64,000 nucleotides of DNA from Solwaraspora sp. WMMD792 (GTDB lineage Bacteria; Actinomycetota; Actinomycetes; Mycobacteriales; Micromonosporaceae), in contig NZ_JARUBH010000009.1 of assembly GCF_029626105.1 (NCBI RefSeq), positions 868,001 to 932,000 of the forward strand, read 5' to 3'. The notes beneath the pieces are model-generated. The model was given only the letters and a program-made list of their open reading frames with translations, was not told the DNA's origin and did no database searches. Each line of letters opens with the position of its first letter. Within the stretch, counting starts at the first letter, position 1. A program made the position numbers and the translations under genes. Below, one piece after another: positions 58,611 through 62,682 of the stretch.

Positions 58611-61600
58611 ATGACAGAGGGTGAGCGACCGGTCGGCGCCCCGACGGTGCCGGCTCCGCGACCGGCCGTCCCCGCCTTGCTCGCCGCCGCCCTCGACCGG
58701 GCCGGCGAAACCAACCGGCTGATCCGGGAGCGCGACTGGAGCCGCACCCCACTCGGCGCGCTGGACGGTTGGCCGGCCAGTCTGTGCCAGGCGGTCGGCA
58801 TGATGCTCTCGTCGCAGGCCCAGATCGTGCTCTACTGGGGGCCGCAGCTGCGTGCCTTCTACAACGACGCCTACCTGCCCACCATCGGCGCGAAGCATCC
58901 GGCCGCCCTGGGTGAGCCCGCCGCCGAGCACTGGTCGGAGCTGTGGGACGTGCTGGAGCCGCTGTTCGCCGGGGTGGTCGAGAGGGGGACCGCCTACCGT
59001 GGCACCGACCATCCGTTCCTGCTCGAGCGGCACGGCTTCCTCGAGCAGACCTACTTCGACGTCTCCTACGACCCGCTGCGGGTCGAGGACGGCAGCGTCG
59101 GGGGTGTCTTCTGCATCGTCAGCGAGACCACCGGACGGGTGCTCGGCGAGCGTCGGATTCGCACCCTGGCCGGGCTGGGCAGCCGGTTGTCCGACCTGCA
59201 GAGCCAGGCCGACCTGCGCCGTGGTGTGCTGGAGGTGCTCGACACCTGCCGCGATGACATCCCGTTCGCCCTGCTCTACCTCGGATCGGACGCGGACTCC
59301 GCACGGCTGGCCGGCTGCACCGGCATCGCGGCGCAGACCGTCACCGCGCCGCCGCAACCGAGCCCGGGAGATGCCCCGTCCGCGCTGCTGGACGCCTTGC
59401 ACAGCGGTACCGCGCGGACCGCCCGGGCGGCGGACTTCGTCGCCGTACCACCGGACACGGCGGCGCCGGAGGTGCTCGTCCTGCCGATCAGCGCGGCGAC
59501 CGAACCGGTCGGTGCCCTCGTCCTCGGCCGCAGCCGGCACCTGCCGTTCACCAGTGACTACCGCGACTTCTTCGACCTGCTGACCACCCAGATCTCCAGT
59601 GCGGTGACCAGCCAGCGGGCCTATCTGCACGAGCGGGCCCGGGCCGCCGAACTCGCCGTGATCGACCAGGCCAAGACCGACTTCTTCGCCAACGTCAGTC
59701 ACGAGTTCCGGACCCCGCTGACGTTGCTGCTCGGCCCGATCGAGGATCAACTCGCCGACGTGGACCTGCCGGTGCCACATCGCGAGCGGGCCGAGATGAT
59801 GCACCGCAATGCCCTGCGCCTGCTCAAGCTGGTCAACACCGTGCTGGACTTCTCCCGGCTGGAATCCGGTCGGGCGCGAGCGGCGCTGCAGCCGGTCGAC
59901 CTGGCCGACTTGACGAACCGGTTGGCCAGCACGTTCCGGTCGGCTGCCCAGCGGGCCGGGCTGGACCTGGTCGTGCATTGCCCACCGCTGCCCGGGACCG
60001 TGCAGGTGGACCCGGATCTGTGGGAGAAGATCGTCCTCAACCTGCTGTCCAACGCGGTGAAGTTCACCTTCGACGGCACCATCACCGTGCGGTTGCGGGC
60101 GCTCGACGCGTCGGTCGAGCTCACCGTCGCCGACACCGGGGTCGGTATTCCCGCCGCCGACCTGCCGCACCTGTTCGAACGGTTTCACCGGGTAGCCGGC
60201 ACCCGGGCCCGCAGCCACGAAGGCACCGGGATCGGGCTGGCGCTGGTCCGTGAACTCGTCCAACTGCACGGCGGGACAGTCGCGGTCCGCAGCGAACCCG
60301 GTCAGGGCAGTGTCTTCACCGTCGAGATCCCGGTCGGCACCGGGCCGACCCCGCCGGCCGGCCAGGACCCTGAACGCCCAGCCGGCCAGGACCCTGACCG
60401 CCAAGCCGGGCGCGACGAGGTCGGCGACACCAGGCAGCTGTACCTGGCCGAGACGCAGCGGTGGAGCGTCGGGCCGGCGCGGGAAGTGATCGAGCAGCCA
60501 CGGGTCGACCAGCCCGTCGGACGGGTCCTGGTCGCCGACGACAACGCCGACCTGCGGGACCACGTGACCCGGTTGCTGGCACCGCACTGGCAGGTGGTCG
60601 CCGCGGCCGACGGTGCCGCGGCGCTGGCCCTCGCCACCCGTACCCCCTTCGATCTGATCCTGACCGACGTGATGATGCCGGAACTGGACGGTTTCGGCCT
60701 GGTCACGGCGTTGCGTGCGGACCGGCGGACCCGGCATGTGCCGATCGTCGTGCTCTCCGCCCGGGCCGGGCCCGAGGCCGCCGTGCAGGGCCTGTCCGCC
60801 GGTGCCGACGACTACCTGGTCAAGCCGTTCGCGGCGCAGGAACTCGTCGCCAGGGTGCGGGCCAACGTCGAACTGGGTCAGCTGCGCGGCCGGATCATCC
60901 ACCAGCTGCGGGCGCTCGCCGACGCAGCCGTCGCGGTCAACACCGCGCAGACCACCAGCGAGGTGCTGCGGGTCGCGGTCGAGCACATCCAGCAGCTGGT
61001 CCGGGCGTCGAAGGTGGTCGCCACCGCCCCGGGTGCCCGCTACGAGGCGGACGGTGGCGGCCAGCCCTCCGCCGACCCGGCGACGGTCACCCCGTTCATC
61101 GGTGCCGACGGGGAACGGCTGGGCGAGTTGTCGGTCTGGCCCTTCGACGGCGCCGGCGCCGACCCGGACACCGACGAGGCGGCGCTGGCGGAGTTCGCCC
61201 GGATGGTCGGGCTGCGGCTGGGCAACGCCCGGCTGTACGAGGCGGAACACCGCATCGCCAGCACACTGCAGCACAGCCTGCTGCCCCAGACGCTGCCCCG
61301 GGTGCCCGGCGCGCTGATCGCCAGCCGCTACCTGCCCGGCAACGCCGAGGCAGAGGTCGGCGGCGACTGGTACGACGTGGTGGAGGTCGGCGGTGGCCGG
61401 CTGGTCCTGGTGATCGGCGACGTGGTCGGCAAGGGTGTGAACGCGGCGGCCACCATGGGTCAGCTGCGCAACGCGCTGCGGGCGTACCTGCTGGAGGGGT
61501 TCTCGCCCGGTGACGCCCTCACCCGGCTGAACCGGCTGGTCACGACGATGGGCCGGCGTTCCCTCGCCACCGTGGTCTGCCTGTGGTTCGAACCGTCGAG

Positions 61601-62339
61601 CGGTGTGCTGCGCTACGCCAGCGCCGGCCATCCGCCACCGGTGGTGGCCGACGGCGCAACGGTGGGGCTGCTGCACGACCGGGCGCTCGGCCCACCGATC
61701 GGGGCGATCCGGGGCAGCCGCTACGACACGTCGACCGACCGGCTCGCCGTCGGCAGCCGACTGATCTGCTACACGGACGGGCTGATCGAGGACCGCACCG
61801 TGGGCATCGACGCCGGTCTGGACCAGGTCCGGGCCGACGCCAGAGCCGGCGGTGACCACGTCGAGGAGCTCGCCGACCGGCTGCTGCGCCGGGTGGCCCG
61901 CCGGCCCCGTCGTGACGACGTCGCGGTGCTGGTGCTGGAGGCGACCGACCTGGACCGCCTCAGGATGCGGCTGCCGGCGCAGGCGCGGGCACTGGCGCTG
62001 CTGCGTCGACGGCTGGCGGACTTCTTTGCCGCGCACCGGATCGGCGACACCGACCAGTTCGATCTGACCGTGGCGATCTCCGAGGCGGCGGCCAACGCGA
62101 TCGAGCACCCGGTCACCCCCGCGCAGCCGGACATCTGGCTGGAGGTCGGTATCGACGGGGACGACCTGGTCGCAAGCGTGCGGGACAGCGGCGGTTGGCG
62201 GGAGGCCTCCGACACCGGGTTCCGAGGTCGGGGACTGGCGTTGATCGCCGCCCTGGCCGAACTGCGGATCGACCGGGACGGGCAGGGCAGCGAGGTTACG
62301 TTGCGCCGTCGACTGGCTCCCCGACCGGATCCGGCCTGA
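58611..62339 (+). CDS. Hybrid histidine kinase fused to PP2C phosphatase and RsbW-like kinase
   Basis: The 1242-residue protein has, in order: a PAS-like sensor (about 30-180), a GAF-like domain (195-340) and a HisKA with H364 in NVSHEFRTPL. An HATPase follows (470-575; NAVKF, DTGVGIP, GTGIGLAL). A linker with the repeat PAGQDP leads to a receiver with D686 in ILTDVMMPELDG, a degenerate GAF (765-870) and a PP2C/SpoIIE domain (895-1095; GGDWYD with D919, IGDVVGKG, RRDDVAVLVLEA). The C-terminus is an RsbW-like ATPase (1110-1235; AISEAAANAIEHP). It should link a phosphorelay to a partner-switch that controls a STAS protein, probably the one at 62296. It starts at ATG 58611. Confidence 0.93.
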   Translation: MTEGERPVGAPTVPAPRPAVPALLAAALDRAGETNRLIRERDWSRTPLGALDGWPASLCQAVGMMLSSQAQIVLYWGPQLRAFYNDAYLPTIGAKHPAALGEPAAEHWSELWDVLEPLFAGVVERGTAYRGTDHPFLLERHGFLEQTYFDVSYDPLRVEDGSVGGVFCIVSETTGRVLGERRIRTLAGLGSRLSDLQSQADLRRGVLEVLDTCRDDIPFALLYLGSDADSARLAGCTGIAAQTVTAPPQPSPGDAPSALLDALHSGTARTARAADFVAVPPDTAAPEVLVLPISAATEPVGALVLGRSRHLPFTSDYRDFFDLLTTQISSAVTSQRAYLHERARAAELAVIDQAKTDFFANVSHEFRTPLTLLLGPIEDQLADVDLPVPHRERAEMMHRNALRLLKLVNTVLDFSRLESGRARAALQPVDLADLTNRLASTFRSAAQRAGLDLVVHCPPLPGTVQVDPDLWEKIVLNLLSNAVKFTFDGTITVRLRALDASVELTVADTGVGIPAADLPHLFERFHRVAGTRARSHEGTGIGLALVRELVQLHGGTVAVRSEPGQGSVFTVEIPVGTGPTPPAGQDPERPAGQDPDRQAGRDEVGDTRQLYLAETQRWSVGPAREVIEQPRVDQPVGRVLVADDNADLRDHVTRLLAPHWQVVAAADGAAALALATRTPFDLILTDVMMPELDGFGLVTALRADRRTRHVPIVVLSARAGPEAAVQGLSAGADDYLVKPFAAQELVARVRANVELGQLRGRIIHQLRALADAAVAVNTAQTTSEVLRVAVEHIQQLVRASKVVATAPGARYEADGGGQPSADPATVTPFIGADGERLGELSVWPFDGAGADPDTDEAALAEFARMVGLRLGNARLYEAEHRIASTLQHSLLPQTLPRVPGALIASRYLPGNAEAEVGGDWYDVVEVGGGRLVLVIGDVVGKGVNAAATMGQLRNALRAYLLEGFSPGDALTRLNRLVTTMGRRSLATVVCLWFEPSSGVLRYASAGHPPPVVADGATVGLLHDRALGPPIGAIRGSRYDTSTDRLAVGSRLICYTDGLIEDRTVGIDAGLDQVRADARAGGDHVEELADRLLRRVARRPRRDDVAVLVLEATDLDRLRMRLPAQARALALLRRRLADFFAAHRIGDTDQFDLTVAISEAAANAIEHPVTPAQPDIWLEVGIDGDDLVASVRDSGGWREASDTGFRGRGLALIAALAELRIDRDGQGSEVTLRRRLAPRPDPA

Positions 62340-62682
62340 CCATCCGGGCCGGGCTGCCGGCCCGGATCGCCTCGGCGGCCAGCCACGGCTGCCCGCCGAG
62401 GCCGGAGATGTCCAAAACCCGGCGGACCTGCCGGGACGGCAGCACCGTCAGCGCCTGCGGGTAGCGGTCGGTGAGCTGGAGCAGCGCGTGGATGGCCGCC
62501 GAATCGAAGAACGAGACCGTACGCAGATCGAGGGTCACCTTGCCGGCGTCCTCGTGGATCGCGGCCTGGTACATGTGCTCGGCGGTGGCCATGTCCACCT
62601 CGCCGTTGACAGTGACGGTCAGGTGGTCACCGTCCAGGTCACTGGTGGCGGAGAAGAGCTGCTCCGGACCCTGCTGATCCAC
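62296..62682 (-). CDS. STAS-domain anti-anti-sigma-like protein
   Basis: The protein has 128 residues from GTG 62682, one of several possible starts; TTGCTG and CATCTT would place the transcript start at this GTG, so it may be leaderless. The STAS core reads LTVTVNGEVDMATAEHMYQA, with KVTLDLRTVSFFDSAAIHAL holding the phospho-acceptor Ser (S of FDSAA). It ends overlapping the fused kinase-phosphatase gene by 44 bp in convergent order. It is the natural substrate of both the RsbW-like and the PP2C domains there, by family knowledge. Confidence 0.82.
   Translation of the reverse strand: MDQQGPEQLFSATSDLDGDHLTVTVNGEVDMATAEHMYQAAIHEDAGKVTLDLRTVSFFDSAAIHALLQLTDRYPQALTVLPSRQVRRVLDISGLGGQPWLAAEAIRAGSPARMVRPDPVGEPVDGAT

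Follow-up and report, generated by a model that had tools for sequence, protein, structure and literature searches.

The window analysed here, a 64,000-nt stretch of the Solwaraspora sp. WMMD792 genome (contig NZ_JARUBH010000009.1, positions 868,001 to 932,000; window positions are counted from its first letter), holds a forward-strand gene at 58611-62339 (ATG start) whose 1242-residue product joins a sensor histidine kinase (HK), a receiver (REC), a PP2C phosphatase and an RsbW-type serine kinase. Facing it on the reverse strand is a gene for a 128-residue STAS protein of the anti-anti-sigma type (62296-62682, GTG start). Judging from intact motifs, known relatives and gene association, we think it probable that the large protein is a single-chain cytoplasmic partner-switch controller and that the STAS protein is its substrate. 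An earlier note on this DNA had read the same four parts in one chain, placed phospho-acceptors at H364 and D686, and pointed to a convergent STAS partner overlapping the gene by 44 bp; Pfam domains with all catalytic motifs intact, a motif check of the two residues and the coordinates of the overlap (62296-62339) bear it out, and the genome comparisons below favor the partnership.

The domains, all on the forward strand, begin with a PAS-like input domain at residues 33-185, a range cut from the alignment (58707-59165); its Pfam PAS_4 match at residues 69-177 is below the cut-off (15.3 bits versus 23.1), and the domain is conserved in orthologs and distant homologs. GAF domain 1 follows at residues 206-332 (59226-59606; Pfam GAF_2, 32.5 bits, cut-off 28.6). 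A hybrid histidine kinase comes next, with HisKA at residues 354-420 (59670-59870) carrying H364, HATPase_c at residues 467-575 (60009-60335) with its N, G1 and G2 boxes, and a Response_reg receiver at residues 639-750 (60525-60860) with its phospho-acceptor D686 and Lys; the 129 bits of the HATPase_c model PF02518 are a sum over two stretches of the 1242-residue protein. A second, compact GAF domain (GAF2, residues 757-851, 60879-61163) and a 39-residue helix (residues 852-890, 61164-61280) lead into the PP2C/SpoIIE phosphatase, which Pfam places at residues 928-1110 (61392-61940; E 4.7e-47, 160.9 bits against a cut-off of 25) and which has the conserved metal-site Asp residues (919, 937, 1056, 1102/1103) of the RsbU/SpoIIE-type PP2C (PPM) enzymes. 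The chain ends in a GHKL serine kinase domain of RsbW/SpoIIAB type (residues 1121-1232, 61971-62306; HATPase_c_2/RsbW above cut-off, E 1.5e-19), with the N-box Glu and Asn (E1158/N1162), the G1 Asp (D1192), the G2 Gly residues (G1206/G1208) and the RsbW fold. A Pfam scan of the chain found no Hpt domain. None of the curated NCBIfam names covers the whole chain, the best being generic hybrid kinases far below their cut-offs.

We take the frame as a real gene because of its domain matches and its orthologs, found in all six other genomes of the genus at 75-95% identity. Its length alone is weak evidence, since at 73% G+C an antisense open frame of 1259 codons (58329-62108, reverse strand), taken as a by-product of that composition, exceeds the gene in length. 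One ortholog, that of Micromonospora lutea (L056), has a frame that begins within the histidine kinase and a tblastn match that extends to residue 1; this is a frameshift, either real or a sequencing error.

For the catalytic end of the protein, the closest relative with a solved structure is the RsbU-RsbW segment of Mycobacterium tuberculosis Rv1364c (3ke6; E 1e-39 over residues 894-1236), matched in fold with Z 28.5 over 331 residues at a root-mean-square deviation (rmsd) of 11.6, a high value that probably arises because the two domains are positioned differently. The PP2C part also matches SiaA (6k4e, Z 24.6), and the RsbW domain matches Bacillus subtilis RsbW in its complex with RsbV (6m37; Z 17.8, rmsd 1.8, 112 residues aligned). 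Residues D1056, D1102, D1103 and H1007 of the PP2C domain, and the motif Glu, Asn, His, Asp and Gly residues of the RsbW domain, do not vary in any of the 58 ortholog rows, in which one genome is counted twice (G122, as L032 and L131) and many rows end at a locus edge, nor in any of the 22 distant rows. Counting rows that have the position, D919 and D937 are present in 57 of 57 orthologs, H364 is His in 31 of 31 and D686 is Asp in 34 of 34. The other kinase and receiver residues are likewise invariant in ortholog rows with those positions, bar receiver Lys738, which is Ala in one of 43 rows (L141, one of the rows lacking the kinase-receiver block, as described below); among the distant rows a few changes or misalignments occur.

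The facing protein has the make-up of an RsbV/SpoIIAA-type antagonist: a single STAS domain (Pfam STAS, E 9.4e-9; STAS_2, E 1.1e-8) and a candidate phosphorylatable Ser in a DS motif (FFDSAAI). This Ser61 (codon 62500-62502, reverse strand), the predicted phosphorylation site, is Ser in all 63 distinct STAS ortholog sequences.

Gene association was evaluated in a family sample of 150 genomes that includes the genus, and in a set of distant loci. The STAS ortholog was found in 53 of the 150 (E <= 2.7e-29; the next match was at 1.1e-10) and the PP2C-RsbW end in 46 (E < 1e-120, leaving out weak matches in G072 and G064). The STAS gene is convergent to the PP2C-RsbW ortholog in all 46, within 97 bp in 43 of them; both genes are present and convergent in the seven genomes of the genus, and convergent STAS was seen at all 11 named Micromonosporaceae loci. 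The distant set, which supplies the independent evidence, consisted of 80 loci picked by likeness to the large protein only, regardless of STAS, from which 11 orthologs were subtracted. The remaining 69 comprise 22 with PP2C then RsbW, nine with PP2C only, 37 kinases without PP2C and one other. A STAS domain within 500 bp accompanies 18 of the 22, none of the nine and one of the 37 (Fisher p of 3.5e-5 for the first comparison and 1.9e-10 for the second, relatedness ignored). The sole case among the 37 is a Pseudonocardiales metagenome-assembled genome (L107) with STAS 97 bp downstream, and one locus (L068) stands in the PP2C-only class through a second PP2C gene there, its main match ending just before STAS. 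Sixteen of the 18 distant STAS domains are in a same-strand downstream gene and start 36-111 bp past the end of RsbW; in the two Pseudonocardia cases (L061 and L079) Pfam confirms that STAS is fused to the RsbW-bearing chain itself. Since the pairing occurs in convergent, tandem and fused form, a single ancestral gene order cannot be what the coupling depends on, and this comparative evidence supports the predicted STAS partnership of the PP2C-RsbW protein.

The kinase-receiver (HK-REC) block is absent from at least five orthologs, those of M. avicenniae (L076), G137, G136 (L141), G142 (L150) and G080 (L152), all of which keep GAF2, PP2C, RsbW and the convergent STAS gene; their open frames are of 627-834 aa, in four of the 46 family genomes. 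Remnants of the receiver persist in two of them, a degenerate tail in L141 and a scrap of its start in L150, which marks at least this pair as deletions. The distant full-length homologs also carry HK-REC. A quick maximum-likelihood tree built on PP2C-RsbW, with rows ending before the cassette left out of the count, has at least four changes of HK-REC state, three of them forced by well-supported branches. HK-REC is thus an input cassette that can be removed from a core of PAS-GAF-GAF-PP2C-RsbW, and the receiver would be an added control on the core switch. A bolder version, which we hold to be evenly balanced between right and wrong, is that the cassette acts as a plug-in repeatedly excised in frame, each excision turning a two-component-controlled switch into a GAF/PAS-controlled one with the GAF2-helix-PP2C-RsbW core and STAS intact; if true, the intact and excised orthologs form a natural experiment on what the receiver contributes to a bifunctional kinase/phosphatase. 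The earlier note had gone further, stating that the outcome between the two activities is probably set by the receiver, and this we do not uphold, given that the five orthologs keep the core without HK-REC and that receivers of known relatives act in opposite directions. In the published accounts consulted, phosphorylation of the Pseudomonas aeruginosa HsbR receiver favors dephosphorylation of its STAS protein (PMC6482189) and that of the M. smegmatis RsfR receiver lowers phosphatase activity (PMC10950880); a phosphorylated receiver could here either raise or lower the phosphatase.

Several observations weigh against the proposed controller and its STAS substrate. Family loci are not independent, because of common descent and because the map gene adjoins STAS throughout them, and some of the 46 of 46 is owed to inheritance of gene order. 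Four of the 22 distant RsbW-bearing homologs (L057, L081, L101, L125) are without a nearby STAS gene. Conversely, seven family genomes, six of genus g19 and G130, have STAS beside map and no PP2C-RsbW ortholog (loci L130, L136, L138, L140, L144, L145 and L134), so that STAS works, or at least can work, with other partners; Ser is kept in these STAS-only genomes, and another kinase probably serves the protein there. By sequence kinship the STAS protein is no closer to RsbW-coupled STAS proteins than to others of its own genome, and it misses the cut-off of the NCBIfam anti-sigma antagonist model TIGR00377 (40.4 against 53.45 bits). A target sigma factor, which the earlier note had proposed to look for, was sought by neighborhood and none was found near the locus, the genome's two SigB/F/G matches above cut-off lying far from the window, at C9:1565444 and C9:2081584. 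Finally, because five orthologs have lost HK-REC and keep the core, the receiver is not essential to the core switch everywhere. At one of the STAS-only loci (L138), the gene facing STAS looks like a nucleotidyltransferase, as named from its sequence.

We regard it as unlikely that the RsbW-type domain serves for docking or as an anti-sigma domain and has little activity as a kinase, a stand-alone RsbW phosphorylating STAS and the large protein being mainly a regulated phosphatase like RsfR or the B. cereus RsbY. The title of Sachdeva et al. 2008 reportedly speaks of lost kinase activity in Rv1364c, three adjacent STAS/RsbW matches lie elsewhere in the genome, and the seven STAS-only genomes keep the Ser without the large protein. 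However, the kinase motif residues, N-box Glu included, are invariant in every ortholog and distant row, the domain folds like B. subtilis RsbW, and the lack of a STAS neighbor at all nine PP2C-only homologs indicates that STAS goes with the RsbW domain.

We doubt to a similar degree that HK-REC is an ordinary hybrid kinase feeding an outside Hpt protein or response regulator, or that its receiver only restrains the kinase, with the GAF domains controlling PP2C-RsbW separately. Repeated loss of the cassette with PP2C-RsbW-STAS kept does show that the core is able to work in its absence, and the receiver attached to B. cereus RsbK is reported to inhibit its kinase and not to relay (PMC4574943). 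Against this, GAF2 and the signaling helix follow the receiver in the same chain, the chain has no Hpt domain by Pfam, and receiver-controlled REC-PP2C and REC-PP2C-RsbW proteins have been described (PMC6482189, PMC10950880). That the neighboring STAS protein is not the substrate, its adjacency being a matter of inherited gene order next to map and one of the other STAS proteins being the true target, would fit the 12 STAS matches in the genome, the map synteny, the STAS genes that seven genomes keep in the kinase's absence and the lack of special kinship to coupled STAS proteins, but it is very unlikely in view of the two further arrangements in distant homologs, the spacing of no more than 97 bp at 43 of the 46 loci, and the result that window genes on the kinase's far side are mostly not found at other family loci, flanks permitting.

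Between receiver and phosphatase, GAF2 is an addition to what the earlier note described. An AlphaFold2 model of residues 757-1242 (31-row alignment) has a predicted local distance difference test score (pLDDT) of 91.3 and a predicted template modeling score (pTM) of 0.84, and residues 757-880 folded alone (12 rows) give pLDDT 87.9 and pTM 0.83. Searched against the PDB with Foldseek, the latter model has 3cit as top match (E 7.3e-6); by VIA-align, 3cit scores Z 13.1 over 123 residues and DosP Z 13.9, and the match list is mostly GAF or phytochrome GAF entries. With four strands in 124 residues, where matched chains often have 150-200, the domain is a compact GAF, and it may bind no ligand. 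In the model of residues 757-1242, the 39-residue helix links GAF2 to the phosphatase. In RsbU, coiled-coil linkers of this kind are reported to act as the switch of PP2C dimers, and the same has been proposed for receiver-, GAF- and PAS-linked relatives (PMC12143880).

As a single-chain controller, the protein would work as follows. The PAS-like and GAF1 domains would sense a signal and set autophosphorylation at H364, from which phosphate would pass to D686 of the adjoining receiver; the receiver state would then act through GAF2 and the helix on PP2C, by the RsbU-type dimer and coiled-coil linker mechanism. The C-terminal RsbW-type domain, with ATP, is predicted to phosphorylate Ser61 of the facing STAS protein and the PP2C domain to remove that phosphate, both as suggested by relatives, by gene association and by motifs that are intact. 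STAS without the phosphate could capture an anti-sigma RsbW, either the protein's own or a stand-alone one, and so free a SigB/F-type sigma factor. The parts would correspond to M. smegmatis RsfS, RsfR and RsbW2 fused, with the STAS protein as the RsfB counterpart. M. smegmatis RsbW2 is described as a kinase that does not bind SigF (PMC10950880), which calls for caution in assuming that the RsbW domain here holds a sigma factor. Such a design puts a sensor, a phosphorelay and an opposing serine kinase and phosphatase in one protein with the likely substrate encoded alongside; how receiver state is converted to a kinase/phosphatase balance, a hard question with four proteins, becomes a one-tube assay for which the cassette-loss orthologs are ready natural controls.

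Each part is known, usually on separate proteins, and the window protein joins the layouts of RsfS/RsfR/RsbW2, HsbR/CrsR and Rv1364c. Compared by description, in layout and domain content, the M. smegmatis proteins RsfS (HK), RsfR (REC-PP2C), RsbW2 (kinase) and RsfB (STAS) supply the same four activities as the window protein and its STAS neighbor, and rsfB-rsbW2 likewise faces an opposite-strand rsfR-rsfS operon; there, however, the four are separate proteins and RsfS has an extracellular CHASE3 sensor, whereas here HK, REC, PP2C and RsbW share one chain with GAF2 between REC and PP2C (PMC10950880). P. aeruginosa HsbR, with HsbA, and Shewanella oneidensis CrsR, with CrsA, are described as single REC-PP2C-RsbW chains that act both ways on a STAS protein (PMC6482189). 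The window protein has that order with GAF2 inserted, but it differs in its HisKA-HATPase kinase in cis, the HsbR receiver being fed by separate hybrid kinases via HptB. Rv1364c (PDB 3ke6; PMC9138534) shares the PP2C-RsbW tandem, but as PAS-PP2C-RsbW-STAS it has PAS input only, no two-component part and a fused STAS domain, where the window has a separate STAS gene. In B. cereus, the hybrid kinase RsbK and the REC-PP2C protein RsbY likewise control an RsbV/RsbW switch, as separate proteins (PMC4574943). Clostridioides difficile RsbZ, a tandem GAF-PP2C protein, has a pair of GAF domains ahead of its phosphatase, as do the orthologs without HK-REC; no RsbW or PAS domain is mentioned for it in the portion of the source used (PMC12143880).

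In the open-licence literature we found no report of HK-REC-PP2C-RsbW in one chain, and sequence databases very likely hold such full-chain entries under SpoIIE-family names. The PP2C-RsbW end is common in the family, as counted above, and distant full-length forms occur in Streptomyces, Pseudonocardia and others. A class-wide search at E<=1e-65 had matches in four of 296 genomes, a count that is uninformative on frequency because this threshold excludes most distant homologs.

The 44-bp overlap of the convergent genes is incidental. STAS residues 102-128, which form it, are missing from nearly all orthologs, another point beyond the earlier note. At 43 of the 46 family loci the spacing lies between -44 and +97 bp. 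We rejected the overlap as a means of regulation, since it occurs in 14 of 46 loci and the other six genus members all have gaps, of 27-83 bp. The three wider spacings, 3602 bp in L128 (G050), 3570 bp in L129 (G085) and 652 bp in L131 (G122), are insertions; the first two, alike in size, may be one shared element.

Upstream of the large gene on the same strand is a PAS-GGDEF-EAL gene (53989-56247, named from sequence). It was dropped as an HsbD-like partner, standing beside the ortholog in two of 44 loci checked, many of which have short flanks. Elsewhere in the genome, the SigB/F/G-type match at C9:2081584-2082609 (G000; loci L186, L201) is a sigma factor with an in-frame STAS domain that has Ala at the usual phospho-Ser position (FVDAAGI). 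At C9:6186585-6188591 (G000; loci L163, L007), a 2280-codon open frame has HATPase_c_2 upstream of SpoIIE, with STAS matches a few kb to either side (C9:6181116 and C9:6192315); this is possibly a second large partner-switch locus, of reverse RsbW-PP2C order.

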